The translations under genes were made by a program, and so were the position numbers. A DNA stretch of 64,000 nucleotides from Daejeonella sp. JGW-45 (GTDB taxonomy: Bacteria; Bacteroidota; Bacteroidia; Sphingobacteriales; Sphingobacteriaceae). The stretch covers positions 620,001-684,000 of the forward strand of contig NZ_JARKNC010000001.1 in NCBI RefSeq assembly GCF_029360805.1, given 5' to 3'. Shown piece after piece: positions 1 through 12,726 of this stretch. The notes beneath the pieces are model-generated. The model had not been told where the DNA came from. It saw only the letters and a list, made by a program, of their open reading frames with translations, and made no database searches. Within the stretch, counting starts at the first letter, position 1; the number at the start of each line of letters is the position of its first letter.

Positions 1-779
1 TGCATCCCCCCGCTTTTCATCAGCTTCATGTTAATCGCATGGTAAACACCTTTAGCTTTTTCAACATCCGCAAAGCGCTGCACCGATTCATCGCCGACAA
101 TAGCGACCGGGCTTCGTTCAGTGATCCAGGCGTTCGAATCAGGGTCGTCCTTTGCCATAGGCTGCTCAATCAGGACAACTCCCTGCTCATGAAGCCAGTG
201 AGCCATATCCAGTCCCTGCTGCCTGTCTAACCAGCCCTGATTGGCGTCTACGAATAAGGGCTTATTGCTTACCGAACGGATAGTATTAATGAGCTCCTTA
301 TCATTATCACGGCCGAGTTTCACTTTGATGATGTGGCAGTGTTCGCCCTCTTTGATCTTTTGAATCAGCACTTCCGGTGTGTCTATACCCAGAGTGTACG
401 ATGTTTTCGGCATCCGGGCCGGGTCAGTGCCAAAAAACTTATAACATGCCGTATTCTCCATCTTTCCTTTGAGGTCATGCAGGGAAATATCTATTGCAGC
501 TTTGATACTCGGATTGGCAGGAGCGATACTATCGAGGTACGCAACAAGCTCCTCGAAATCAAATGGTTCTTTCAGCCAGGACAGGTCTACCTTCGACAAA
601 AATGCTGTGGCAGTTTCCATATTTTCACCCATATAAGGCACCATCGAAGCTTCTCCATACCCCGTGAAACCTTCATGGCTTATTTCCAAAAGCATGATCG
701 GGGTTGAAGTGCGTGAGAATTTTGCAATGGTAAAAGGATGCTTTAATGCAAGTTCGAAAGGCTTATAAGTGATCTTCAT
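1..779 (-). CDS. Dipeptide epimerase (enolase superfamily), 3' end outside window
   Basis: The minus strand reads open from an ATG at 779 to the window edge, about 259 codons with no stop. The translation has the enolase-superfamily layout: an N-terminal capping domain beginning MKITYKPFELALKHPF, a Lys-x-Lys acid/base motif (KVKLGR), then successive metal ligands in FVDANQGW (Asp), LIEQPMA (Glu) and GDESV (Asp), followed by NMKLMKSGGM. This matches L-Ala-D/L-Glu and related dipeptide epimerases, which interconvert stereoisomers of murein-derived dipeptides for recycling. The C-terminal barrel strands, including the second catalytic Lys region, lie partly beyond base 1. Substrate cannot be fixed from sequence alone; o-succinylbenzoate synthase is a less likely alternative. 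Confidence 0.85.
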   Translation of the reverse strand, partial: MKITYKPFELALKHPFTIAKFSRTSTPIMLLEISHEGFTGYGEASMVPYMGENMETATAFLSKVDLSWLKEPFDFEELVAYLDSIAPANPSIKAAIDISLHDLKGKMENTACYKFFGTDPARMPKTSYTLGIDTPEVLIQKIKEGEHCHIIKVKLGRDNDKELINTIRSVSNKPLFVDANQGWLDRQQGLDMAHWLHEQGVVLIEQPMAKDDPDSNAWITERSPVAIVGDESVQRFADVEKAKGVYHAINMKLMKSGGM

Positions 780-959
780 AATGAGTTTTTGACAGTACGA
801 AATAACAAAATTTATTATGTTCAATACGATTAAATTTTGGGGGACCGCAACAGGTCTAACTCGCCAAATCACAAATAAACTTTTATTTTTTCAAACATTC
901 ACCTAGATTGCGAGCCTCTTAACATAGCATAAAATTAATATTGGCTTAACGTTGTCTTT

Positions 960-1715
960 GTGAAAAAAACCCTCCTTTTATTTTTATTTTGTTCCCTTTA
1001 TTTTACTTCTTACTCTCAAAACACTCGCTTAAAAGATAAAAACAGCATAGGCTGGTATGCGTTTAATGCTTCCCTGAAGTTAGATCCGAAATGGAGCCTC
1101 ACCGGTGAATTTCAATGGCGCAGAGATCATGTTATTTCTGATCCGCAGCAAGCTGTATATAAACTGGCCGTCAACCATCTGGTAGCGCCCGGGCTGAACA
1201 TAAGAGCGGGCGTCGCACTAGCCGACACTTACAACTATGGCGATATACCGGTTAATGGTATGGGTAAACAGTTTACCGAATACCGCACTTACCAGATGGC
1301 GGGATTGAGTAACAAGACCGGTATTGCTGAAAACAATCATCGTTTCATGCTCGAACAGCGTTGGGTGGGCAGGTATTCTGATGCTTCCCTGAATAAAGAA
1401 GACGAGTACGTATATACAAACCGATTTCGCTATATGTACCGGCTTCAAATCCCCTTAAAGGGAAAGGCAATTGCTGACAATACTCCCTACGCGGCTGTAT
1501 ATGATGAAATATTTATCGGATTCGGTGAAAATGTTGGCGAAAATGTTTTTGACCAGAACAGGTTTGGACTTTTACTGGGGTATCGCTTTTCCCCGCAAAT
1601 AAGGATAGAAGGTGGCTTCTTAAGTCAGATTGCTCAATTCGGGCGCGAAATTAACGGAAGAAACGTCTTTCAGCATAACAGGGGAATTATTCTAAGCACT
1701 AACCTGAGCTTCTAA
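960..1715 (+). CDS. DUF2490 family outer-membrane protein
   Basis: A 251-residue protein starting at GTG, with a Sec signal peptide (KKTLLLFLFCSLYFTSYSQ) cleaved after about residue 20. The remainder alternates short amphipathic strands rich in Tyr, Arg and Phe and ends in an aromatic residue (LSTNLSF), which fits a small outer-membrane beta-barrel. The pattern FQWRRDHVISDPQQ and the repeated RFxYMYRLQ-type strands match what I recall of the DUF2490 family of Bacteroidota. Function of the family is unknown to me. It stands alone: the upstream epimerase is divergent and the downstream sulfur cluster starts 65 bases later. Confidence 0.75.
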   Translation: MKKTLLLFLFCSLYFTSYSQNTRLKDKNSIGWYAFNASLKLDPKWSLTGEFQWRRDHVISDPQQAVYKLAVNHLVAPGLNIRAGVALADTYNYGDIPVNGMGKQFTEYRTYQMAGLSNKTGIAENNHRFMLEQRWVGRYSDASLNKEDEYVYTNRFRYMYRLQIPLKGKAIADNTPYAAVYDEIFIGFGENVGENVFDQNRFGLLLGYRFSPQIRIEGGFLSQIAQFGREINGRNVFQHNRGIILSTNLSF

Positions 1716-1780
1716 ACTTTACATTAAAACATTATTTCCCCGGACAATTATTACCAACTTTGTAGTCAAATTGTCCTGGT

Positions 1781-3169
1781 ATGCAGATAGAACAAATTTA
1801 TACAGGTTGCCTGGCTCAGGGGGCCTATTATATTACCTCCAACGGCGAAGGAGCGATCATTGATCCATTACGCGAAGTGCAGCCTTACCTCGACCGCCTG
1901 GAAAGGGATAATGTAAAACTTAAATATATTTTCGAAACACACTTTCACGCTGACTTTGTGTCGGGTCACCTCGATCTGAGCGATAAAACAAAAGCGCCGA
2001 TCGTTTACGGGCCGGAAGCTAAACCTGAGTTCGACTTCATATCAGCAAAGGACGGGCAGGAATTCAATGTGGGTAAGATCATACTGAAAGTCCTGCACAC
2101 GCCGGGACATACCATGGAAAGTACATGCTACCTTTTGATTGATGAATATGGGAAGGAACATGCTCTCTTTAGCGGCGATACTTTATTCATCGGCGATGTG
2201 GGCCGGCCGGACCTTGCCCAAAAGGCTGCACACATGACCAAAGAAGAATTAGCAGCTACACTTTACAGGTCGCTAAGGACAAAGGTGATGACCCTGCCGG
2301 ATGAAGTGATAGTCTATCCGGCGCATGGTGCCGGCAGCGCCTGCGGCAAGAACATGAGCAAGGAAACAATATCGACAATAGGGAATCAAAAGCAGTTTAA
2401 TTATGCTTTACGGGCAAACATGACCGAAGCCGAATTTATAAAGGAAGTCACCGAAGGGCTTCTCCCTGCTCCTGCCTACTTCAGCGCCAATGTGGCGATG
2501 AATAAAAAGGGTTACGAGAGTTATGATACAGTGCTCGGCAATGGCATGCGTGCCTTAAGCCCGGAGGAATTTGAAGTCGCTGCCGGGGAAACGGGGGCCC
2601 TGATCCTGGATACAAGAAATAATATTGATTTTTATAAAGGATTTATTCCTCAATCTATCAATATCGGTTTAAGCGGTGATTTCGCACCATGGGCAGGATC
2701 GCTGATCGCGGATGTAAAACAAGAGATCCTGCTTGTAACGGATAAGGGAATGGAAGAAGAAGCGGTTACCCGCTTAAGCCGCGTCGGATTTGATAATGTT
2801 CTTGGCCACCTGGAGGGCGGATTTGAATCCTGGGAAAAGGCAGGGAAAGAAATCGACCAGGTTGACAGGATAAGCCCTGATGAATTTGCCGGGTCATATT
2901 CAGCAGGCCACAAGATAATTGACGTCCGGAAAGAGTCTGAATATGATGCACAGCATATACAGGATGCGGAGAACATGCCGCTCGCTGATATTAATACATG
3001 GATAAAAGATATCGACCCCAAGGAGCATTTTTACATCCATTGTGCCGGCGGCTACCGAAGCATGATGGCCGCTTCAATTTTATTATCCAGAGGTTACAGA
3101 AATTTTAGCGAAATTAAAGGTGGGATTTCTGCAATAACAAATCCGCGTGTTCCAATGACAAAAAGCTAA
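1781..3169 (+). CDS. MBL-fold persulfide dioxygenase-like protein with two rhodanese domains
   Basis: A 462-residue cytosolic protein. Residues 1-230 are a glyoxalase-II-like metallo-beta-lactamase domain with THFHADF near residue 53, HTPGHT near 108, FSGDTLFIGDVGRPDL near 130 and YPAHGAGSACG near 180. That layout is typical of ETHE1/persulfide dioxygenases rather than lactamases. Two rhodanese domains follow. The first (about 262-355) has no Cys in the expected active loop (LLVTDKGMEEEA). The second (about 365-455) has the loop HCAGGYRS with the catalytic Cys. Family knowledge suggests oxidation of glutathione- or low-molecular-weight persulfides to sulfite, with sulfane transfer by the rhodanese. 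Two YeeE-type transporter halves follow within 5 bases, supporting a sulfur-handling operon. Confidence 0.88.
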   Translation: MQIEQIYTGCLAQGAYYITSNGEGAIIDPLREVQPYLDRLERDNVKLKYIFETHFHADFVSGHLDLSDKTKAPIVYGPEAKPEFDFISAKDGQEFNVGKIILKVLHTPGHTMESTCYLLIDEYGKEHALFSGDTLFIGDVGRPDLAQKAAHMTKEELAATLYRSLRTKVMTLPDEVIVYPAHGAGSACGKNMSKETISTIGNQKQFNYALRANMTEAEFIKEVTEGLLPAPAYFSANVAMNKKGYESYDTVLGNGMRALSPEEFEVAAGETGALILDTRNNIDFYKGFIPQSINIGLSGDFAPWAGSLIADVKQEILLVTDKGMEEEAVTRLSRVGFDNVLGHLEGGFESWEKAGKEIDQVDRISPDEFAGSYSAGHKIIDVRKESEYDAQHIQDAENMPLADINTWIKDIDPKEHFYIHCAGGYRSMMAASILLSRGYRNFSEIKGGISAITNPRVPMTKS

Positions 3170-3173
3170 AACG

Positions 3174-3737
3174 ATGCTGGATCTTATCAAACAACCATGG
3201 CCCTGGTATATTGCCGGCCCGCTGATCGGCCTAACCGTGCCTGTTTTATTAATTATCGGAAATAAAGCCTTTGGTATCAGCTCCTCCCTCAGTCATATCT
3301 GCGCAGCTTGTTTTCCTGCGAACGTTTCTTTTTTTAAGTATGACTGGAAAAAAGAAGCCTGGAATCTTTTTTTCGTGTTTGGGATACTGATCGGCGGAGG
3401 CCTGGCTGCGAGCCTGCTCCAAAACCCGGACCCTTTTGTAATTAATCCGAAACTCGCTGCCGAGCTTTCAGGCTACGGGATCACGAATTACAATAACTTC
3501 ATTCCGGCAGAAATCGTAAACTGGTCCGCGCTGTTCACCGCAAAGGGCTTGCTGATGATCGTGGCAGGAGGCTTCCTCATCGGCTTCGGCACGCGTTACG
3601 CGGGAGGCTGTACCAGCGGACATTCGATCATGGGCCTGTCAACTCTTCAATGGCCTTCCCTTGTTGCTACCTGCTGCTTTATGGTCGGCGGATTTATCAT
3701 GGCCAATCTTTTGTTGCCACTAATACTTTCGATCTGA
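3174..3737 (+). CDS. YeeE/YedE family sulfur transport half-protein (N-terminal half)
   Basis: A 187-residue integral membrane protein with about four to five hydrophobic segments. It carries the conserved YeeE/YedE signature GTRYAGGCTSGHSIMG near residue 140, in which Cys and Gly residues line a sulfur-compound path, and another Cys pair near ICAACFPAN (about residue 42). In YeeE/TsuA-type proteins two such halves make one thiosulfate-permeable channel; here they are separate genes. It begins 4 bases after the persulfide dioxygenase stop and ends 2 bases before the next half. Transport of thiosulfate or a related sulfur anion is inferred from the family and neighbourhood. Confidence 0.85.
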   Translation: MLDLIKQPWPWYIAGPLIGLTVPVLLIIGNKAFGISSSLSHICAACFPANVSFFKYDWKKEAWNLFFVFGILIGGGLAASLLQNPDPFVINPKLAAELSGYGITNYNNFIPAEIVNWSALFTAKGLLMIVAGGFLIGFGTRYAGGCTSGHSIMGLSTLQWPSLVATCCFMVGGFIMANLLLPLILSI

Positions 3738-3739
3738 CC

Positions 3740-4183
3740 ATGAGCATAAAAGAAAAAAATAAAGCTCCCCTGACTGGCAATATTAAATACCTTATCGTAG
3801 GTGTGTTATTTGGAATCGTGTTTGTTAAAGCCGAGATCATCAGCTGGTTCAGAATACAGGAGATGTTCAGGCTTCAATCATTTCACATGTATGGCGTTAT
3901 TGGAAGTGCAGTTCTCGTCGGCCTTGTCTCTGTGCTCATTATCCGGAAGTTTGACATCAAAACCCTTGGCGGCGAAAAGATCGTACTTCCTGTCAAAGCC
4001 TTTAGCAAAGGGCAGATCTATGGCGGTTTGCTGTTCGGGCTCGGATGGGCAATTACCGGCGCATGCCCGGGACCGCTATTTGCCCAGATCGGAACCGGGG
4101 CTACCATCGTGATCATCACATTCTTAAGTGCCGTTGCCGGTACATGGACCTACGGGTATCTGAAAGAGAAGCTGCCGCATTAG
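3740..4183 (+). CDS. YeeE/YedE family sulfur transport half-protein (C-terminal half, DUF6691-like)
   Basis: A 147-residue membrane protein with four predicted helices and the signature ITGACPGPLFAQIGTG near residue 115, equivalent to the Cys-containing loop of the other half. I take the ATG at 3740 (MSIKEKNKAPLTG), 2 bases after the preceding stop; an in-frame upstream ATG at 3650 would overlap the previous gene by 88 bases and add sequence unlike the family. It completes the sulfur cluster begun at 1781. A short hairpin follows at 4206-4232. Confidence 0.83.
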   Translation: MSIKEKNKAPLTGNIKYLIVGVLFGIVFVKAEIISWFRIQEMFRLQSFHMYGVIGSAVLVGLVSVLIIRKFDIKTLGGEKIVLPVKAFSKGQIYGGLLFGLGWAITGACPGPLFAQIGTGATIVIITFLSAVAGTWTYGYLKEKLPH

Positions 4184-4205
4184 AAATTATTACTTAAATC
4201 AAACT

Positions 4206-4232
4206 AACCCGGGTTATTAAGCTAACCGGGTT
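4206..4232 (+). terminator. Weak hairpin after the sulfur operon
   Basis: AACCCGG (4206-4212) can pair with CCGGGTT (4226-4232), followed by TTATTAA. The stem is 7 bp with no long T run, so termination is plausible but not certain. It overlaps the promoter element of the next gene. Confidence 0.4.
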
Positions 4233-4235
4233 TAT

Positions 4236-4243
4236 TAACTTTG
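4236..4243 (+). promoter_or_regulatory. TAnnTTTG -7 element, 13 bp before ATG
   Basis: TAACTTTG matches the Bacteroidota -7 consensus. The ATG at 4249 lies where transcription would be expected to begin, so the mRNA is predicted to be leaderless or nearly so. Confidence 0.55.
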
Positions 4244-4248
4244 CCCGG

Positions 4249-5238
4249 ATGGCAATACAGCTCTACAAACCATTTAACACGCTGAATTTCAGCAAGCAAC
4301 ATTGTTTTCTCAGCGGCGAAAGACTGCAGTCGACAGAAGAGGAGATCGCCGTTTTCCCGGTGTGGCTGATGCAGGAATATAAGCTGGAAGATAAACCGTT
4401 TAAGCTTCTTGACGAAAGCATGTCTACCTATAAGGACATGAGACTTCCATGTTCTAATGAAACATACGAGCTTGGTATTGAGCCTCTTGAAGATGAGATC
4501 CGCGCTGCATTTCTTAAAGGCTACGATGCCGTTGCCGAACTATCTCAAATAAAACTTTTCCAATGGATTGGAAAGATGGTTTACGGGATCCTCTTTAATG
4601 AGATCCGCATCGGAATTCGCCAGCAAAAAGCTAACAATGAAGAGTTTGTTTTTTCGCAGTCGCTGATCCATAAATTCAGCAACCTGCATATTATGCTGCA
4701 GTCTATAATCATGCCGGTAGAATTCGAGGGCAGTCTTCCATGGACGATCAAGGTCTTTAAAACGGATACAAAACAAGATCTTTTCAGTTACCGTGACGAG
4801 ATAAATACACTTACGTTTTCTCTTGGGATGAAAGATTTCGGGATCGTAGCCTGCCTTCAGGATAACGGCACCAATGGGCTCTATCACAGGGAAATTCTTG
4901 AGAAGATCAATCAGCAGCCCCTGCATCTTATACAGTTTGAAGAAATATGCGGGAGGTTCTTTTATTCGAATTACCTGTTTAACCGTTTGCCGGAATATAC
5001 GGTCATGCCCACGGAAGATACCATATATATTGAGGCTATGCCTTTACGTGGAATGAGCAATAAACCTCTTTTTGACGTGTGGCAAAATAGGGTTTATGGG
5101 CAGGTACTTGAGAATTTCTGGAAACCCTGGGGACTGGTGTTGTTCGAGATCATAAAAGACCCGGAAAAACCTCTTAGTTACCTGTTGGACCAGGAGGAGA
5201 ACTTCCGGCCATCTGGTTCCGTCGTACTGCCATCCTGA
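4249..5238 (+). CDS. Conserved hypothetical protein, unknown function
   Basis: A 329-residue protein that I do not recognise. It has no signal peptide or membrane segment. It opens with MAIQLYKPFNTLNFSKQHCFLSGE, where the CFLSGE motif resembles the first half of a zinc or HNH-type knuckle, but no second Cys pair follows, so I do not call a nuclease. The centre is helix-rich, with GKMVYGILFNEIRIGIRQQ near residue 108, and the C-terminus is acidic. It is a single gene with its own promoter-like element, convergent with the rhomboid gene. Length and composition are normal for the region, and nothing suggests transfer. Confidence 0.7.
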   Translation: MAIQLYKPFNTLNFSKQHCFLSGERLQSTEEEIAVFPVWLMQEYKLEDKPFKLLDESMSTYKDMRLPCSNETYELGIEPLEDEIRAAFLKGYDAVAELSQIKLFQWIGKMVYGILFNEIRIGIRQQKANNEEFVFSQSLIHKFSNLHIMLQSIIMPVEFEGSLPWTIKVFKTDTKQDLFSYRDEINTLTFSLGMKDFGIVACLQDNGTNGLYHREILEKINQQPLHLIQFEEICGRFFYSNYLFNRLPEYTVMPTEDTIYIEAMPLRGMSNKPLFDVWQNRVYGQVLENFWKPWGLVLFEIIKDPEKPLSYLLDQEENFRPSGSVVLPS

Positions 5239-5250
5239 TATCTTCAGGTC

Positions 5251-5886
5251 TTACCCCCTTCCCGTTAGCTGGCTGATAAAATAACCGGCAACATCCGGGT
5301 AGAAAATAATAGTTAGAAGTACGCCTGTAAGTGCCCCATAAAAATGGGCGTCATGGTTAATTGCATCCCGCGAATTACGCGATGCATACCAGCAGTAACC
5401 CAGGAACAGGAAACCGTATATAACCGCCGGGATGGGGAGGGGTATCGGAAATATGATCATCTTGTTCAGGGGGTAGAATAAAATAAAACTGAACACTACA
5501 GCACACACGGCACCGGATGCTCCCAGGCTGTTATACCAGAAATCTTCCTTGTGCTTCAGGATAGAGGTGATATCGCTGAGCACAATACTGGCGAGATACA
5601 ATATGCCGAACTGAACATGGCCCCAGCTGCTTAATGAAACGAGTGTTTTTTCGAGCGTAAACGCGAAAAAATAAAAAGACAGCATATTTACTGCCAAATG
5701 TCCCCAGTCTTTGTGAATAAGCCCGCTGGTGATCAGGGAATACAGGCGCCTGCCCCGGCTAACGCTGTAAGGGTGCAGCATGAACTTACCATATACCTCG
5801 GCATTGGAAAATGCATATATACTTGTTACTATAGTGAATATAAAAATTATCGTTGCTACCGGGGTATCGTTAATAAAGCTCTCCAT
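5251..5886 (-). CDS. Rhomboid-family intramembrane serine protease
   Basis: A 211-residue protein with about six transmembrane helices. The rhomboid marks are present: HLAVNMLSFYFF (the HxxxN element of helix 2), GASGAVCAVVFSF (nucleophile Ser in GxSG, helix 4) and HDAHFYGALTGV (catalytic His, helix 6). These residues predict an active protease that cleaves membrane proteins near the outer face of the inner membrane. The substrate is unknown. It is convergent with the 4249 gene and separated from the next minus-strand gene by about 75 bases, so it may be transcribed alone. Confidence 0.92.
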   Translation of the reverse strand: MESFINDTPVATIIFIFTIVTSIYAFSNAEVYGKFMLHPYSVSRGRRLYSLITSGLIHKDWGHLAVNMLSFYFFAFTLEKTLVSLSSWGHVQFGILYLASIVLSDITSILKHKEDFWYNSLGASGAVCAVVFSFILFYPLNKMIIFPIPLPIPAVIYGFLFLGYCWYASRNSRDAINHDAHFYGALTGVLLTIIFYPDVAGYFISQLTGRG

Positions 5887-5960
5887 TATATCAGTTCTCT
5901 TCTAGTGCTGGTTAATCGCCCGAAGGCTGCGTAAATAAATTTTTTCCAGCACCAAATATA

Positions 5961-6215
5961 CTATACGCCGAGCATATCTATCTGTTCCGCCAGTTTCCTG
6001 TCCTTATCTGTTATCTTATTTCCGGCACTATGTGTGCTCAAACTAATATTTACTTTATTGTATGAATTACTCCAATCCGGGTGGTGGTCCATTTTTTCGG
6101 CTAAAAGGGCGACCTTTGACATGAAGCCCCAGGCACTTACAAAGTCTTTAAATTTAAATTCCCTGATAAGTGATTCTGAGTTTGTTTCAGGGTCTGTTGT
6201 TTCTTTCCAGCTCAT
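5961..6215 (-). CDS. 4a-hydroxytetrahydrobiopterin dehydratase (PCD/DCoH)
   Basis: An 84-residue protein of typical PCD length. The family motif [27 protein letters not shown] supplies the catalytic His pair and the following beta strand; [21 protein letters not shown] is the preceding helix. The enzyme dehydrates 4a-hydroxytetrahydrobiopterin to regenerate the pterin cofactor of aromatic amino-acid hydroxylases. No hydroxylase gene lies in this window. Its start overlaps the stop of the upstream MmcQ gene by 4 bases, so the two are translationally coupled. Confidence 0.93.
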
Positions 6216-6556
6216 ATCAATGTTTGTTTACTTTTGGGAAGACTCTTCACAACGAGGTCGTATGAATGGTCTATCATTTCCTTTAACTGCACATCATTTA
6301 ACTTTCCGTTCATAAAAACAGTGTTCCAGTGGATTTTGTTCATATGATATCCCGGCTGCACTTCTTCGTATTCCTCGCGCAGGGAAACTGCTTTCTCGGG
6401 GTCGCATTTTACGTTAAACCTGTCAGCCTGATCGAGCCCGGCGAGAAGAAATATCTTATCCATCACTTTAAACACAATTGTTTCTTCTCCAAAAGGGAAA
6501 GTTTCCTGTACCCGGCTTTTTGAAAGACAATAATCGCGTAAGGTTTCAATGTTCAT
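6212..6556 (-). CDS. MmcQ/YjbR family protein
   Basis: A 114-residue protein, [25 protein letters not shown], with the CyaY-like fold pattern of MmcQ/YjbR proteins (DUF419). Conserved marks include [20 protein letters not shown] near residue 20 and [14 protein letters not shown] near residue 72. I place the start at the ATG at 6556, because the 15 extra residues given by the in-frame ATG at 6601 are atypical. Members are often called DNA-binding, but the biochemical role is not established. It is the first gene of a two-gene unit with the pterin dehydratase. Confidence 0.87.
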
Positions 6557-6607
6557 GTTTAATGGAATAATAGTTGCCGATGTAGAAGGCGGGTAATACA
6601 ATTGATC

Positions 6608-6615
6608 TATTTTTG
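6608..6615 (+). promoter_or_regulatory. TAnnTTTG -7 element of pepT
   Basis: TATTTTTG lies exactly 30 bp before the pepT ATG. The bases just before the start are A-rich (AGCAAAAATG), as in other Bacteroidota leaders without a Shine-Dalgarno sequence. Confidence 0.6.
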
Positions 6616-6637
6616 TACTTAATAAAATTAAGCAAAA

Positions 6638-7891
6638 ATGAGTGTCTCTGAAAATATAAGCTATACCGTTGTTGAACGGTTCATAAAATATACATCGATC
6701 GATACCCAGTCGGATCCTTCGTCAGGCACTTGCCCTTCAACTGAAAAGCAAAAGGACCTTGCGAGACTGCTCGTTGCAGAGCTTTTTGAAATGGGTATAG
6801 CCGATGCGCACCATGACGACAACGGCTATGTGTATGCCACCATCCCGGCAAATACGAAGAAAAAAGTTCCGGTAATATGTTTTTGCTCGCATATGGATAC
6901 GTCGCCTGACTGCAGCGGAAAGGATGTGAGAGCGATCATACATGAAAATTATCAGGGCCAGGATATTATACTACCTGATGACCCTACCCAAATATTGAGA
7001 ATGAAAGACCATCCTGACCTGAAAGACCAGATAGGCAATGATATTATTACGGCAAGCGGTACTACCTTGCTTGGCGCCGATAATAAGGCGGGATTGGCGG
7101 AAATAATGGATGCCGCTAACTTTTTAGTATCGCATCCTGAATATAAGCACGGAGCAATTAAAATCTTATTTACACCTGATGAAGAGATCGGCCGGGGTGT
7201 GGATAGGGTTGATCTCAAAAAATTAAATGCTGAATTTGCTTATACTGTTGATGGCGAAACTGTAGGCTCGATAGAGAACGAAACCTTTTCTGCCGATGGT
7301 GTTAAAGTGGTGATAAACGGCGTGAGCAGTCATCCTGGTTTTGCCCGCGGGAAAATGGAAAGCGCTATCAAGATAGCATCTCAGGTTTTAGCTTGTCTCC
7401 CAAAGGAAAAACTCTCTCCCGAAAGCACTTCAGATAAAGATGGTTTCATTCACCCGGTTTCAATTTCCGGAACAGTGGAACAAGCTACCATAGAACTGAT
7501 CATGCGGGACTTCAACGCCCTTTCCCTTAAAAGCCACGAAAGGATCCTCGAGGTTATCATCGAGGAGGTACTACAAGAATATCCTAATTCTACTTACAAA
7601 CTGGTAGTCGAAGAGCAATACCGGAATATGAAGGAAATAATTGACCGTCACCCCAAAATAATGGAACTCGGAATTAAGGCTATTGAACGGAGCGGGTTGA
7701 AAGCAAAGCTCCAGAGCATCAGGGGTGGTACTGATGGCTCGCGATTATCATTCATGGGCCTGCCCTGTCCCAACATTTTCGCGGGCGAACACGCCTTCCA
7801 CGGCAAGCAGGAATGGGTTTCTGTTCAGGATATGCAAAAAGCTGTTCTTACGATCATTCACCTGGCTCTGCTTTGGGAAGAAGAGAGCTGA
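6638..7891 (+). CDS. pepT: Peptidase T (tripeptide aminopeptidase)
   Basis: A 417-residue M20 family cytosolic metallopeptidase that removes N-terminal residues from tripeptides. The dinuclear zinc site is visible: SHMDTSPDCSG near residue 89 (His and Asp), GADNKAGLAEIMDA near 150 (bridging Asp), TPDEEIGRGVD near 185 (Glu-Glu) and GGTDGSRLSFMG near 366, with the final His in FAGEHAFHGKQEW near 385. Full family length. It is a single gene with a clear -7 element 30 bp upstream. Confidence 0.96.
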   Translation: MSVSENISYTVVERFIKYTSIDTQSDPSSGTCPSTEKQKDLARLLVAELFEMGIADAHHDDNGYVYATIPANTKKKVPVICFCSHMDTSPDCSGKDVRAIIHENYQGQDIILPDDPTQILRMKDHPDLKDQIGNDIITASGTTLLGADNKAGLAEIMDAANFLVSHPEYKHGAIKILFTPDEEIGRGVDRVDLKKLNAEFAYTVDGETVGSIENETFSADGVKVVINGVSSHPGFARGKMESAIKIASQVLACLPKEKLSPESTSDKDGFIHPVSISGTVEQATIELIMRDFNALSLKSHERILEVIIEEVLQEYPNSTYKLVVEEQYRNMKEIIDRHPKIMELGIKAIERSGLKAKLQSIRGGTDGSRLSFMGLPCPNIFAGEHAFHGKQEWVSVQDMQKAVLTIIHLALLWEEES

Positions 7892-8926: not shown

Positions 8927-9937
8927 ATGGAAAGACGAAAGTTCATTACAAAAGGCATAGCAGCCAGTGCAATACTACCAGCAGCTTATTCAATAATGGG
9001 ACAAGAGGCGGCAGCTGCAGAAATAGCTAGTAAAACCTCACCTGCCAGCCCCCCTGAAAATGATCCTGTTGTTATAGAACGACCTGTTGCCGGGAAACCC
9101 CACAAAGGAAAGGTACTGGCAGTGATCCAGCCCCATTGCGATGACATTGCTTTGTTTGCCGCCGGCACTGTCGCAAAGCTTGTCGATGAGGGCTATACTG
9201 CTTATATGATCCGGACTTCTAATGATGATGTGGCGGGCCGCGGCAAAACTCTTGGAGAACGTGTCGTTAATAATGAGATTGACACTGAAGCCACTGCGAA
9301 GGTGCTCGGGATCACAAAGGTTTACGATCTTCACTACCGGAATCACCGGATGGATGAATATAATATACAAGAGATTAAAGGCCGTCTGATATTCCTGTTC
9401 CGTTTGCTTAAGGTTGATACAGTTATGTGCTACGATCCCTGGGGGCATTATGAAGAAAACCCGGACCATTATGTCACTGCGAAAGCTGTTGAAGCAGCCC
9501 GGTGGATGGCCGGGAGCCTGGACTATCCCGAGCATTTTGAAGTTGTAAAACCGCATGCTGTGCAGGAGCGATATTATTTTGCCCGGGGTCCGCAATTAGT
9601 AAACCGCGTGGTAGATATCAGCAAATACATTGACATAAAGGTTGAAAGCAATGTGGTGATAAAAACGCAGGGACCTGGCGGCGACGCTGGTGCCAATCTA
9701 AGAAAAAGTTTAGCGGCTCAGGGTAAAACACTTCCGCTTCTGGGAGATAACGATGATACAGCCAACGCCGCATTTGTAAAACACTTTGTACTGGATGTTG
9801 ACTCAGAATACCACAGGGCTGTTCCCTCAGACAAGGAGGTAGGAAAGAAGTATGGTCTTGAGTGGGCAGAGCAGTTTCATTATTTCGGGAAACCGGTATC
9901 GGTAATCCCTGATTATGTAGCAAAAAACGCCAGATAG
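8927..9937 (+). CDS. Secreted PIG-L/LmbE family deacetylase
   Basis: A 336-residue protein. Its N-terminus MERRKFITKGIAASAILPAAYS resembles a twin-arginine signal (RRKFI followed by a hydrophobic stretch). The zinc-binding LmbE motif is present as QPHCDDIALFAAG near residue 66; YRNHRMDEYN and the third-ligand region DPWGHYEENPDHYVTA near 170-190 follow. The family removes N-acetyl groups from GlcNAc-type sugars, but the substrate cannot be told from sequence. A perfect terminator hairpin follows 6 bases after the stop. Confidence 0.86.
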   Translation: MERRKFITKGIAASAILPAAYSIMGQEAAAAEIASKTSPASPPENDPVVIERPVAGKPHKGKVLAVIQPHCDDIALFAAGTVAKLVDEGYTAYMIRTSNDDVAGRGKTLGERVVNNEIDTEATAKVLGITKVYDLHYRNHRMDEYNIQEIKGRLIFLFRLLKVDTVMCYDPWGHYEENPDHYVTAKAVEAARWMAGSLDYPEHFEVVKPHAVQERYYFARGPQLVNRVVDISKYIDIKVESNVVIKTQGPGGDAGANLRKSLAAQGKTLPLLGDNDDTANAAFVKHFVLDVDSEYHRAVPSDKEVGKKYGLEWAEQFHYFGKPVSVIPDYVAKNAR

Positions 9938-9943
9938 AAATAA

Positions 9944-9970
9944 AAAAGCCACTCGTTTTGAGTGGCTTTT
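9944..9970. terminator. Bidirectional intrinsic terminator
   Basis: AAAAGCCACTC and GAGTGGCTTTT form an 11-bp stem around GTTTT, with A and T runs on both sides. It can end the PIG-L transcript and, on the other strand, any transcript through the GIY-YIG gene and the interrupted tRNA copy. Confidence 0.85.
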
Positions 9971-10027
9971 GTGGTCCCGACGAGAATCGAACTCATATCT
10001 AAAGTTTAGGAAACTTCTATTCTATCC
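9968..10027 (-). repeat. 60-bp direct repeat of tRNA-Arg 3' part, copy 1
   Basis: Identical over 60 bases to 10403-10462. It covers everything from the D-loop to just past the 3' end of tRNA-Arg(CCU). The two copies flank the GIY-YIG gene with a period of 435 bp, like the direct repeats left by an element inserted into a tRNA gene. Confidence 0.9.
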
Positions 10028-10066
10028 CCGTCCGAACGGCGTTCAGCCGGGCGGGCGTTGAACTAC
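9972..10066 (-). pseudogene. Interrupted tRNA-Arg(CCU) copy
   Basis: On the minus strand, the T8-A9-GTTCAAC part of tRNA-Arg is present, then 29 foreign bases (10028-10056), then the rest of the tRNA unchanged, including anticodon CCT, T-arm and acceptor 3' strand to A73. The 5' acceptor strand (GGTCCCG in the intact gene) is replaced by the GIY-YIG coding end, giving GACCCGG, which mispairs at three positions with CGGGACC. The insertion sits in the D-loop. A functional tRNA is unlikely, though the anticodon and T arms are intact and the RNA could still be made as the 3' tail of the GIY-YIG mRNA. Confidence 0.85.
10028..10056 (-). repeat. 29-bp GC-rich insertion in the tRNA D-loop, copy A of a short dispersed repeat
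   Basis: The inserted bases contain an imperfect palindrome (CCGTTCGGACGG on the minus strand) preceded by GCCCGCCCGGCTGAACG. A closely related sequence occurs at 51841-51870 on the plus strand, and a partial one at 51938-51955. Its boundaries are exact because the intact tRNA gene next door shows the uninterrupted sequence. Confidence 0.75.
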
Positions 10067-10305
10067 CGGGTCAGTTTCCCCCTTAGATACCTGCGGCCCG
10101 CCGAAGATTTAAAATATTTCTCTCGTGCTATCGCCTCCTTTTCAGTCAAAAAACTCTCAAAATACGCCAGTTCAAAAGGCAGATAAGGACGAATCGAAAC
10201 CGTCAAGCCCGAGTTGTGCTGCATTAACCGGTTATGAACATCTTTACAATGGCCTTTGTAATAAAAGTCTGCCACCTGGCTCTTAATTACGTATGCGAAG
10301 TACAT
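10063..10305 (-). CDS. Small GIY-YIG endonuclease-fold protein
   Basis: An 80-residue single-domain protein. It starts MYFAYVIKSQVADFYYKGH, in which the AYV and YKG triplets stand for GIY and YIG. The conserved Arg follows in VHNRLMQHNSG, and the metal-binding Glu is in FLTEKEAIAREKYFKSSAGRR. The length matches the URI/UvrC-N-like stand-alone family common in Bacteroidota. Its stop codon TAG uses T8-A9-G10 of the interrupted tRNA-Arg copy, so the gene runs directly into tRNA sequence. It lies between two tRNA-Arg copies. Role is unknown; a homing-like or tRNA-gene-targeting nuclease is an inference from position. Confidence 0.85.
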   Translation of the reverse strand: MYFAYVIKSQVADFYYKGHCKDVHNRLMQHNSGLTVSIRPYLPFELAYFESFLTEKEAIAREKYFKSSAGRRYLRGKLTR

Positions 10306-10380
10306 AAGCTAGTGATGTGGCATAAATGTATACTGTTGAGAATGTATTTACAAACTGACTTAGGAAACGGTGAAAAAACA

Positions 10381-10405
10381 AAAGCTGCCCGGTTTGAGCA
10401 GCTTT
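10381..10405 (-). terminator. Terminator hairpin after tRNA-Arg
   Basis: AAAGCTGC (10381-10388) pairs with GCAGCTTT (10398-10405) around a 9-base loop. On the minus strand it is followed by TTTGTTTTTT, a typical U tract just after the tRNA 3' end. Confidence 0.75.
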
Positions 10406-10462
10406 GTGGTCCCGACGAGAATCGAACTCATATCTAAAGTTTAGGAAACTTCTATTCTATCC
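10403..10462 (-). repeat. 60-bp direct repeat of tRNA-Arg 3' part, copy 2
   Basis: The partner of 9968-10027, inside the intact tRNA gene. See that entry for the flanking arrangement. Confidence 0.9.
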
Positions 10463-10478
10463 GTTGAACTACGGGACC
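10407..10478 (-). tRNA. tRNA-Arg (anticodon CCU)
   Basis: A complete cloverleaf folds on the minus strand: acceptor GGTCCCG/CGGGACC (7 perfect pairs), T8-A9, D stem GTTC/GAAT with loop AACGGATA, anticodon stem GAAGT/ACTTT with loop TTCCTAA (anticodon CCT), variable AGAT, and T stem ATGAG/CTCGT with loop TTCGATT, then discriminator A. CCA is not encoded. It reads AGG codons. It is followed at once by a terminator hairpin and lies just downstream of metG on the same strand. Confidence 0.95.
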
Positions 10479-10481
10479 TGG

Positions 10482-12578
10482 TCACCTTATTTCGCTGCCA
10501 CTCGGAAATTCTTCCGAAGGCGCAACAAAACTAAGCTTTCCGTTTGAATTTTCCGCCATCAGAATCATTCCCTGGGATAAAATTCCTTTTATTTCACGGG
10601 GTTCAAGATTAATAAGCACTGAAACCTGTTTGCCAATAATGTTTTCGGGCTCGAAATATTCAGCAATGCCTGATACAATAGTACGCTGATCTATTCCGGT
10701 ATCGACCTGAAGCTTTAAAAGCTTTTTAGTTTTGGCGACCTTTTCAGCTGCCAATATCTTACCCACACGAATATCCATGGCTGCGAATTGGTCAAAATTA
10801 ATATTTGCTTTCGCCAGGGACGGCCCACTATCTTCCTGTGTATTTGCAAGCTTGGTATCCATCAATTTTTTGATCTGGAAATCAATAACATCATCTTCTA
10901 TCTTGTCGAAAAGCAGAGATGCTTCGTTAAGCTGATGGCCTGATTGAAGCATGTCCGCCGTTCCGGCATTGGCCCAGGGCTGCGGATCCAGGTTGAGCAT
11001 TTTAAAAAGCTTCTCTGCGCTGAAAGGCAGGAAAGGCTGAGCAAGAATTGCGAGGTTCGCCGCTATCTGCAGGCCAGTATTCAAAATCGTTTTAACGCGT
11101 TCCTCATCAGTCTTAATTAATTTCCAGGGCTCCTCATCTGCTAGATACTTGTTGCCGAGCCGGGCCAGGTTCATAAATTCTGTCAGGGCCTCTCTGAACC
11201 TGTACTGTTCAAGTGACGATGATACACTCACGGGATACTTTTTAAGCTCCTCAATAACATTCACGTCTGTTTCTGTTAATGCAGAACCGGATACAACCCG
11301 GCCATCAAAATATTTATGTGAAAGAACAAGTACACGATTTATAAAATTACCGAATATTGCTACCAGCTCATTGTTGTTCCGTGCCTGAAAATCCTTCCAC
11401 GTGAAATCATTGTCCTTTGTTTCCGGAGCTGTTGCAGTCAGCACATACCTAAGTACATCCTGTTTTCCCGGAAAATCACGCAGGTATTCATTTAACCAGA
11501 CTGCCCAGTTTCTTGAAGTAGATATTTTATCGCCTTCAAGGTTCAGGAACTCATTCGCAGGAACATTATCAGCCAGCTTATAATCCCCATGAGCCATTAA
11601 CATAGCAGGAAAAATAATACAGTGGAAAACGATATTATCCTTCCCGATGAAATGAACCAGCTTAGTATCCTCGTCCTTCCAATACTTTTCCCAGTTTTGA
11701 GATGGCTTCTGGCCATCGTTCAGATAATACTCAGCTTTTTTCCTGGCGCTTAATCCCGCATCGCAAAGATCCTTAGTCGCTGATATATAACCTATAGGCG
11801 CATCAAACCATACATACAATACTTTTCCCTCCGCATTCTTCACCGGCACCTGTACACCCCAGTCAAGATCACGAGTCATGGCTCTCGGGTGTAAACCACC
11901 CTTCAACCACGACTTGCATTGCCCATACACGTTCGGTCGCCAATCTTTATGCGAATCTATATACCTTTCTATCTCGGGCTGCATTTTATCAAGAGGCAAA
12001 AACCAATTGGTAGTTTTTTTTAACACAGGCTTTTGTCCCGAAAGCGTCGAATGTGGGTTAATAAGCTCATTGGGACTTAAAGAAGTGCCGCACTTTTCAC
12101 ACTGGTCGCCATAGGCATTCTCGTTACCGCAGTTAGGGCATGTACCAACAATATACCGGTCGGCAAGGAACTGCCCCGCCGTTTCATCAAAATATTGTTC
12201 AGTTTCCTCCTCGGTAAAAACACCTTTATCATAGAGGTTTTTGAAAAATCCCGACGCGGTTTCATGATGGGTTTGAGACGATGTCCGGTGATAAATATTA
12301 AATGATACACCAAAATCCCTGAAGGAATCACCAATCACCTTGTGGTATTTATCTACCACTTGTTGAGGAGTCGTTCCCTCTTTTCTTGCTTTTAAAGTTA
12401 TCGGTACGCCATGTTCGTCAGAACCACAAATAAACACCACATCGCGGCCGGCAGACCTTAGATACCTGACGTAAATATCTGCAGGGACATATACTCCGGC
12501 AAGGTGGCCTATATGTACCGGACCATTTGTATAAGGAAGCGCTGCGGTTACAGTGTATCGTTTGAAATTTTGTCCCAA
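10482..12578 (-). CDS. metG: Methionyl-tRNA synthetase
   Basis: About 698 residues. The class I signatures are HIGHLAG near residue 20 and KISTS near 345 (the KMSKS loop). A zinc knuckle [18 protein letters not shown] lies near 155, and a C-terminal EMAP/Trbp111-type tRNA-binding domain begins at about 590 ([14 protein letters not shown]). It charges tRNA-Met. The frame is open upstream to an ATG at 12665, but a TAtcTTTG promoter element (12618-12625) lies inside that extension and the homologous N-terminus begins at about [16 protein letters not shown], so I favour the TTG at 12578. The ATG start is the alternative. The stop lies 3 bases from the tRNA-Arg 5' end. Confidence 0.95.
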
Positions 12579-12617
12579 AATCTGAAAATTAGCGTTAATT
12601 AGCTTTTTGATAATTTG

Positions 12618-12625
12618 CAAAGATA
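12618..12625 (-). promoter_or_regulatory. TAnnTTTG -7 element of metG
   Basis: On the minus strand this reads TATCTTTG. It lies inside the longest possible metG frame and so argues that translation starts downstream of it, at the TTG at 12578. Confidence 0.5.
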
Positions 12626-12726
12626 AACGCTTAGGGCCTAATTTTCTAATTGGATAATTTGACAATAAGTTTATATGCTATTTTGTTTATTTGTGAATCC
12701 TGAACCAAATAATTTATCCTGGCAAC

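Follow-up and report, generated by a model that had tools for sequence, protein, structure and literature searches.

Why should a gene for a lone GIY-YIG nuclease stand between a whole transfer RNA (tRNA) gene and an interrupted copy of the same gene? The question is raised by a stretch of 64,000 nucleotides from Daejeonella sp. JGW-45 (contig NZ_JARKNC010000001.1, positions 620,001 to 684,000; referred to below as the window), in which a short open reading frame (ORF) lies between two such copies of tRNA-Arg(CCU). With a probability of about two in three, we read the locus as a minimal mobile element specific for a tRNA gene, approximately 0.35–0.46 kb long and encoding one protein, a GIY-YIG nuclease of the Slx1/UPF0213 branch. 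Comparison of related loci supports this reading in its anatomy, its strand rule, the local duplication of the tRNA gene and the presence of empty, filled and scarred sites. As far as sequences can tell, the same comparison shows that lineages of the nuclease are specific for particular tRNAs across host families. The parts of the locus are the following.

10406..10478, minus strand: intact, presumably functional tRNA-Arg(CCU) (ARAGORN; Rfam RF00005, 64.7 bits)
10380..10405, minus strand: terminator-like hairpin directly 3' of the intact tRNA, unlike the terminator of the empty site (sequence)
10063..10305, minus strand: gene for a single-domain GIY-YIG nuclease of 80 amino acids (ORF list; Pfam; AlphaFold2 model)
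10056..10072, minus strand: displaced tRNA copy, inner part (tRNA positions 1–17), overlapping the end of the ORF (alignment to the local tRNA)
10027..10055, minus strand: imperfect palindrome (hairpin) of 29 nt in the D-loop of the displaced copy (sequence; pattern scan)
9971..10026, minus strand: displaced tRNA copy, outer part (position 18 to the end), identical to the intact tRNA (exact repeat)
9943..9970, minus strand: terminator that follows the displaced copy and is similar to the one at the empty site (32/40 identities with the L188 flank)
10482..12665, minus strand: metG (methionyl-tRNA synthetase), the left neighbour of the tRNA-Arg(CCU) site

The only tRNA identified by ARAGORN in the window is tRNA-Arg(CCT) at 10406–10478 on the minus strand. 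An earlier note on this DNA had described an 80-residue GIY-YIG gene between an intact and an interrupted tRNA-Arg(CCU) on the same strand, in agreement with ARAGORN, the ORF list and the match to PF01541. The 60 identical bases that it placed 435 bp apart form an exact repeat (9968–10027 and 10403–10462, 100% identity, 435 nt from start to start), and the stop codon TAG of the ORF, as it had stated, is read directly in the sequence as T8-A9-G10 of the displaced copy. The same placement of the stop codon was found in 24 loci with the intact tRNA upstream and in 11 loci with the intact tRNA downstream. A chance repeat is ruled out: the 60 nt are exact and in the tRNA register, and the layout recurs in many other genomes. 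Besides the GIY-YIG ORF, the space between the repeats contains two short ORFs on the plus strand (53 and 67 amino acids); the Pfam search covered the GIY-YIG protein. The displaced copy matches the intact tRNA in 57/57 positions from position 17 on and in 13/16 of the first positions. Its Rfam score of 25.8 bits is under the gathering cut-off of 29, and hence it is a broken tRNA. The ends of the hairpin are ambiguous by one base, and its insertion point can be given as 17/18 or just as well as 16/17 of the tRNA. That the interruption is a hairpin, and that its type follows the nuclease lineage (see below), goes beyond the earlier note.

The protein belongs to PF01541 (E-value 6.3e-12; 46.1 bits against a cut-off of 22.6). 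Residues Y16, R26, H30, E62 and K66 are invariant in profile A1 (22 rows), and we take a conserved Tyr, Arg and Glu to form the active site of GIY-YIG nucleases. When A1 was compared with PDB sequences, all seven matches at E≤0.01 were UPF0213 or SLX1, and I-TevI gave none at this level. The AlphaFold2 model of the window protein (mean predicted local distance difference test score 95.3) was searched with Foldseek: ranks 1–8 were UPF0213/Slx1 and I-TevI took rank 9 with E 0.11, no hit reaching E≤0.001. Profile and fold together give 1ywl, 1zg2 and the SLX1 structures as the closest solved structures. By sequence and by fold, then, the nuclease is nearer to Slx1/UPF0213 than to I-TevI. For this reason homing is the least supported part of what the earlier note proposed, a minimal unit, mobile or homing, with duplication of the tRNA target; the part that holds up is a probable mobile, duplicating unit which leaves a working copy. 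No tblastn match to the window protein was found at E≤1e-4 in 72,556 plasmid or 50,697 phage records, and no NCBIfam or PHROGs family at E≤0.01; among viral contigs, 48 stretches matched a pattern and none was confirmed. The ratio of nonsynonymous to synonymous substitution rates (dN/dS) in the ORFs of relatives lies within 0.06–0.25 (19 pairs with usable dS from 13 sequences); these values are rough, given that most dS exceed 1 and two pairs repeat others (L007 and L232 being one locus). By this comparison, the ORFs of relatives are under purifying selection.

Related loci from Bacteroidota were then surveyed. The starting set contained 236 rows: 27 relatives, 129 loci from the search with A1, and 80 named loci, the best 80 of 151 confirmed relatives from a scan by peptide pattern. 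Eight duplicate ORFs and 13 ORFs scoring below 60 bits with A1 were dropped, and 215 distinct ORFs (195 loci) remained. The 30 top PF01541 loci were excluded from the survey and used as a control. An intact tRNA was located within 400 nt of 166 of the 215 ORFs (160 of the 195 loci), and in no case on the opposite strand. The expectation by chance is about 0.5%, assuming 45 tRNAs per 4 Mb. Broken down by origin, the linked ORFs are 19 of 25 among the relatives, 86 of 120 among the loci found with A1 and 61 of 70 among the named loci not already counted; the A1 fraction is biased upward, since most rows of the profile used for ranking were themselves tRNA-linked. All 80 named loci, which were selected on protein sequence alone though inside the Arg lineage, include 70 with a tRNA (34 Arg-CCU, 31 Arg-CCG, 3 Arg-UCG and 2 Gln-UUG) and 10 without, of which 5 are at contig edges. 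Altogether the nuclease ORFs adjoin tRNAs of 22 anticodon types. In a protein search of 60 relatives the pattern was seen at tRNA-Arg, Leu, Pro, Asp and Ser, with tRNA-Ala and Val as neighbours elsewhere.

In the control, 28 of the 30 best PF01541 loci have no tRNA; the two with a tRNA score 90 and 106 bits with A1, and the remaining ones score at most 63 bits. The PF01541 members of this class form at least two groups, and the relatives of the window protein are mostly tRNA-linked. A1 matches 180 of 296 sampled genomes of the class at E≤1e-12, a level that also admits the other GIY-YIG group, and about 112 of 296 (hand count) at E≤3e-20, which lies above the tRNA-less control loci (up to 63 bits, near 1e-16). 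The suggestion of the earlier note that tRNA genes serve as sites for such genes is supported by the 166 linked ORFs. Neither of the outcomes that it named as counting against mobility, homologues mostly lacking a tRNA or a site with no empty form, was observed. Of the questions it left to related genomes, whether the tRNA differs between them is answered by a difference between nuclease lineages, and empty sites do exist in the same genus. A tRNA copy does not always adjoin the gene: displaced copies could be identified at 142 of the 166 tRNA-linked ORFs, and 49 of the 215 have no intact tRNA within 400 nt.

Two observations were made beside the survey. At L015:991–1725, an ORF of the subfamily lies 142 nt after a gene for transfer-messenger RNA (tmRNA), and no convincing displaced copy was found there. 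We do not claim tmRNA as a target, as this is a single locus and its clade-mates L134, L141, L114, L126, L153 and L163 have no tmRNA according to Rfam. A second group of lone GIY-YIG genes (GWSRKKKEALI type; L053, L065, L067, L079, L080 and others) has no tRNA neighbour; repeats, in part palindromic, border a number of its loci, which possibly represent a related pairing of hairpin and nuclease.

The geometry of the displaced copies follows the position of the intact tRNA, which is 5' of the ORF in 123 cases ("up") and 3' in 43 ("down"). A displaced copy across the ORF was detected in 129 of 151 linked cases away from contig edges and in 13 of 15 near them. Among "up" copies, 87 of 102 reach the 3' end of the tRNA and 26 reach its 5' end; among "down" copies, 35 of 40 start at the 5' end and one reaches the 3' end. 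On this evidence the displaced copy usually keeps the half that faces the chromosome. In "down" rows of the Arg lineage with an insert in the D-loop (18 rows, 17 loci), the outer part matches the local tRNA in 324/328 positions. The two copies within one locus are 97.5% identical on average (112 loci with at least 25 aligned bases, 52 of them perfect), whereas tRNAs with the same anticodon from different loci are 84.7% identical (685 pairs). The duplication is therefore local, or the copies are kept alike by conversion, and it has not been imported. An insert of at least 12 nt interrupts 91 of the 142 displaced copies. The measured inserts are mostly hairpins of 14–60 nt; they reside inside the displaced copy, at no constant distance from the ORF, and can number two or three per copy.

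A nuclease tree was built from 153 domains and 74 columns, leaving 76 of 146 inner branches open. On this tree the tRNA label changes 43 times compared to 76.4 in shuffled data (standard deviation 2.2, minimum 68 of 500 shuffles, n = 101), and the host family, 76 times compared to 79.9 (standard deviation 1.9, minimum 74). With few changes of tRNA and a near-random number of changes of host family, the nuclease lineage goes with the tRNA and has passed between host families. Hairpin type, by typing rules set after seeing the data, changes 7 times compared to 23.3 (standard deviation 1.5, minimum 17, n = 46). Most inserts of the Arg lineage belong to the CCCGCCCG types and interrupt the D-loop. 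Of those counted, 22 fall between positions 16 and 17, 7 between 22 and 23, and 3 between 21 and 22, the others being located at 17/18, 28–44, 38/39, 50/51 and 55/56. Of eight counted Asp inserts, four replace positions 38–51, and the others are at 38–61, 41–51, 31–45 and 57–64. Fifteen distinct Asp hairpins pair in 105/105 cells over seven pairs (maximum 97 with shuffled arms), with more than one type of pair at pairs 3, 5, 6 and 7. Such change that preserves pairing favours a structural role of the Asp hairpin.

The hairpin also occurs elsewhere. Its pattern has 27 matches on one strand of the Daejeonella sp. JGW-45 genome (two of them overlap), against one for the pattern read backward. The hairpin family of the broken tRNA copy is also part of a dispersed repeat some 60 nt long, with a layout such as GACCCCGAAGGTG - hairpin - GTCGCATG (L313, L315, L316, L318, L320, L323, L327–L331). 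We considered whether the hairpin might be purely a repeat dispersed by the host. This is weakened by three other genomes: the pattern has one match in G150 and four of different sequence in G015, in both of which the hairpin of the GIY-YIG locus is the only copy of its sequence, and G150 and G313, which belong to different families, share an identical hairpin. The copies of the JGW-45 genome itself count the other way, as most of the dispersed ones that were read lie in another repeat, away from tRNAs.

Occupancy of the site was assessed in 20 genomes of the same genus, metG being the left neighbour of tRNA-Arg(CCU) in the 15 congeners where both could be read. The site is filled in 4 genomes (G000, which is the genome of the window, G011 and G017 with the tRNA first, and G015 with the ORF first), empty in 7 (G018, G006, G019, G003, G012, G013, G005), scar-like, as judged by eye, in 4 (G001, G016, G002, G009) and not assessable in 5 (G004, G007, G008, G010, G014). 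The fetched loci of the seven empty and four scar-like genomes contained no GIY-YIG ORF, although those of G016 and G002 reach just 8 and 171 nt past the tRNA, respectively, and an ORF may lie further out in these two. The closest congener, G018, has an empty site whose tRNA is identical to the intact copy of the window (73/73). Its 3' flank agrees with the flank of the displaced copy in 32/40 positions (score 21) and with that of the intact copy in 27/40 (score 12); for ten other congeners, one with a flank of only 8 nt, the comparison with the displaced-copy flank gives scores from 1 to 11. The native 3' end of the tRNA gene therefore seems to be that of the displaced copy.

The genome of the window has another such element (L002/L211, contig C2 near 204028), where tRNA-Asp(GUC) is accompanied by two hairpin-bearing tRNA copies. 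This tRNA-Asp site is empty in G006 and carries an ORF-less remnant in G018. Near position 528000 of contig C3, again in the genome of the window (L319:133–391), an intact tRNA-Arg(CCG) precedes a further copy that bears a hairpin but lacks an ORF, and such an element has probably left this remnant. Elsewhere the units form head-to-tail arrays. L150 (positions 1–7001; G135, contig C9) contains ten 457-nt units with one ORF sequence beside one intact tRNA-Met, which could be active amplification or an assembly effect. L180 contains eight units of 359–368 nt with eight ORF sequences, and L181 and L182 contain three units each.

If the locus is a mobile element, its life cycle may be pictured as follows. 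The nuclease would recognise and break one kind of tRNA gene, and repair of the break would insert the element and duplicate the tRNA gene locally around the ORF. One whole tRNA would stay on one side of the ORF, and the copy on the other side would keep the chromosome-facing half with its native flank. This displaced copy would bear the element's own hairpin at a position typical of the lineage, mostly the D-loop (16/17 or 21/22) for Arg and about 38–51 in the main Asp lineage, possibly a present or past site of the nuclease. The hairpin may mark the displaced copy or block its cutting, or it may be the folded structure on which the enzyme acts. The repeats would let the unit grow into tandem arrays.

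Several points weigh against this reading. The intact tRNA has the sequence of the empty site, and therefore a nuclease that cuts this sequence should cut its own host too; no protection of the intact tRNA was found. DNA cutting at the tRNA gene, movement and the role of the hairpin are what we infer, and a tandem duplication followed by decay could imitate parts of the pattern. Ten of the 49 ORFs that lack an intact tRNA within 400 nt stand at contig edges. Among the other 39, about 15 show no trace of any tRNA by reading (L012, L015 with its tmRNA, L016, L097, L098, L103, L120, L130, L133, L134, L141, L154, L157, L185, L285), and the rest are array members or have tRNA pieces. No second copy was detected for 24 of the 166 linked ORFs. 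Of the 142 displaced copies, 51 showed no insert of at least 12 nt; in 20 of these 51, a hairpin (p≤0.05) lies next to the inner end. One measure classes 62/87 inserts as palindromic (p≤0.05), and folding classes 49/87 so; rows scored non-palindromic include several of the imperfect CCCGCCCGG type. In the 22 "up" rows of the Arg lineage with a D-loop insert the ungapped match is 1018/1246 in the outer part and 334/370 in the inner part, the outer value being low because several outer parts hold further hairpins. The bias of the A1 set and the dispersed hairpins of this genome belong here as well, and the pairs used for dN/dS exclude the window's own ORF.

Four other explanations deserve attention. 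Classical free-standing homing, in which a double-strand break in an element-free tRNA gene or in incoming DNA is repaired on the copy that bears the element, with transfer of the ORF and its flanks, the hairpin only destroying the site in the spare copy, would account for target-specific lineages spread over many hosts and for the empty sites, and has parallels in SegB between tRNA genes and in mitochondrial ORFs with duplicated gene ends (both treated below). We nevertheless hold it rather unlikely, as the copies of a locus match each other far better than the tRNAs of other loci, so that, in contrast to mitochondrial mobile ORFs, no foreign half seems to be imported. Moreover, the functional tRNA stays an intact target (insertion of a homing gene removes the target from its own genome, and here, as far as the tRNA body shows, only the spare copy is disrupted), and A1 finds no I-TevI match at E≤0.01. 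Also on the doubtful side is mobility directed by the hairpin: a structure-specific Slx1-like nuclease would act on the hairpin or on a folded single-stranded tRNA gene and move ORF and hairpin as a unit, similarly to integron cassettes with attC or REP (repetitive extragenic palindromic) elements with their transposase. The UPF0213 and SLX1 structures closest to the protein, the dependence of hairpin type on nuclease lineage, the Asp hairpins that change sequence and keep pairing, the hairpins away from tRNAs together with ORF-less hairpin-bearing tRNA copies, and the head-to-tail arrays are all in its favour. It is harder to reconcile with hairpins that sit in the displaced copy at variable distances from the ORF, up to two or three per copy, and with the other repeat to which most dispersed hairpins read in this genome belong; no excised form was seen.

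Tandem duplication of tRNA genes is common in general, and similar palindromes do exist elsewhere in the genome; a third explanation, an old nuclease gene near a chance duplication, with a neutral spare copy gathering palindromic repeats, would need no mobility at all. We find this very improbable: the same layout is observed at 22 tRNA types with no opposite-strand case, the nuclease tree tracks both tRNA and hairpin type, control GIY-YIG loci have no tRNAs, and hairpin positions are typical of lineages. Scarcely more probable is a host function, whereby a domesticated nuclease maintains the dose or processing of the tRNA gene and the hairpin copy is an RNA element of its transcript. Purifying selection on the ORFs of relatives and the overlap of the tRNA-like structure with the ORF end fit this view, and Slx1 relatives have been linked to the copy number of eukaryotic ribosomal DNA (PMC1564403). 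It is at odds with the patchy presence within the genus, where scars and empty sites occur, and with the side on which the hairpin copy lies, since both 3' and 5' placements relative to the ORF occur among the loci, an arrangement unsuited to one RNA role.

How does the proposed mobile element compare with known systems? In tRNA islands of tyrosine integrases, the insert is flanked by a direct repeat of the tRNA 3' end, and the "up" loci are likewise flanked by such a repeat. An island of this type is ruled out, as the stretch between the repeats gives no integrase match, is too short for such a gene and measures less than 0.5 kb; in addition, the mirror-image class described here keeps the tRNA 5' end. 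A group I intron interrupts tRNA-Arg(CCU) in Agrobacterium. An intron is also ruled out: an uninterrupted tRNA is adjacent, the measured inserts are mostly hairpins of 14–60 nt and not ribozymes, and cmscan found no intron family at E≤1 in positions 9000–11000 of the window. The likeness is confined to group I introns being also mobile and also found in bacterial tRNA genes (PMC3984707).

SegB of phages T4 and T6 is described as a free-standing GIY-YIG homing endonuclease encoded in a phage tRNA cluster; it is associated with how the tRNA region is inherited and with its amplification in tandem (PMC2988022; PMC13096335), and no preference for particular isotypes is reported for SegB. Both systems share a free-standing GIY-YIG gene beside tRNA genes. 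The element of the window differs in that it resides in bacterial chromosomes, that its protein has no tblastn match (E≤1e-4) among the searched phage records and no PHROG match (E≤0.01), that its nuclease lineages go with their own tRNAs, and that the unit includes a hairpin-bearing displaced tRNA copy. In Allomyces and Glomus, mitochondrial mobile ORFs (mORFs) place an endonuclease ORF in an essential gene, which is kept whole by a second gene end while the native end is displaced downstream (PMC3630166). The genes that they enter are protein genes of fungal mitochondria, and the gene end that comes with them is diverged, whereas here the targets are tRNA genes, the two copies of a locus resemble each other and the displaced one is marked by a hairpin. 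Slx1 acts in repair as a structure-specific nuclease, together with a partner protein, and has a RING domain; the window protein has a single domain. The account of prokaryotic Slx1-like proteins in a 2006 review of the GIY-YIG superfamily, which uses the word tRNA three times, does not include insertion in tRNA genes (PMC1564403). REP/RAYT and IS200/IS605 offer an analogy in short palindromes tied to a small nuclease lineage (PMC3733652, PMC6006769), but no HUH/Y1 transposase is present here, the sole protein with a family match is GIY-YIG, and the sites are tRNA genes. No description of tRNA-targeting lone GIY-YIG elements of Bacteroidota was found among the matches listed in the open-licence literature, by titles and beginnings of abstracts. 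Judged by its features, the element would be a variant near SegB, mORFs and Slx1, membership in any of these being unproven. Tentatively, and at less than even odds, one may go further and regard it as a new class of bacterial mobile DNA near the lower limit of size, below 0.5 kb, composed of a one-domain Slx1-like nuclease, a lineage-specific hairpin and a duplicated tRNA, with the hairpin or a single-stranded folded tRNA gene as the signal and with lineages that divide the tRNA set of Bacteroidota among themselves.

If the reading as a mobile element is true, many of the lone GIY-YIG genes of Bacteroidota are very small selfish elements that hit essential genes and spare the host, and this would account for the broken or shortened tRNA copies that lie next to small ORFs there. 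Nuclease lineages specialised for particular tRNAs would then constitute a natural set of targeting specificities, and would serve as a test bed for how one tRNA gene could be found by a nuclease domain that is only some 75 residues long and has no further Pfam domain beside it. Such an element would also raise directly the question of how its host is protected from its own nuclease.

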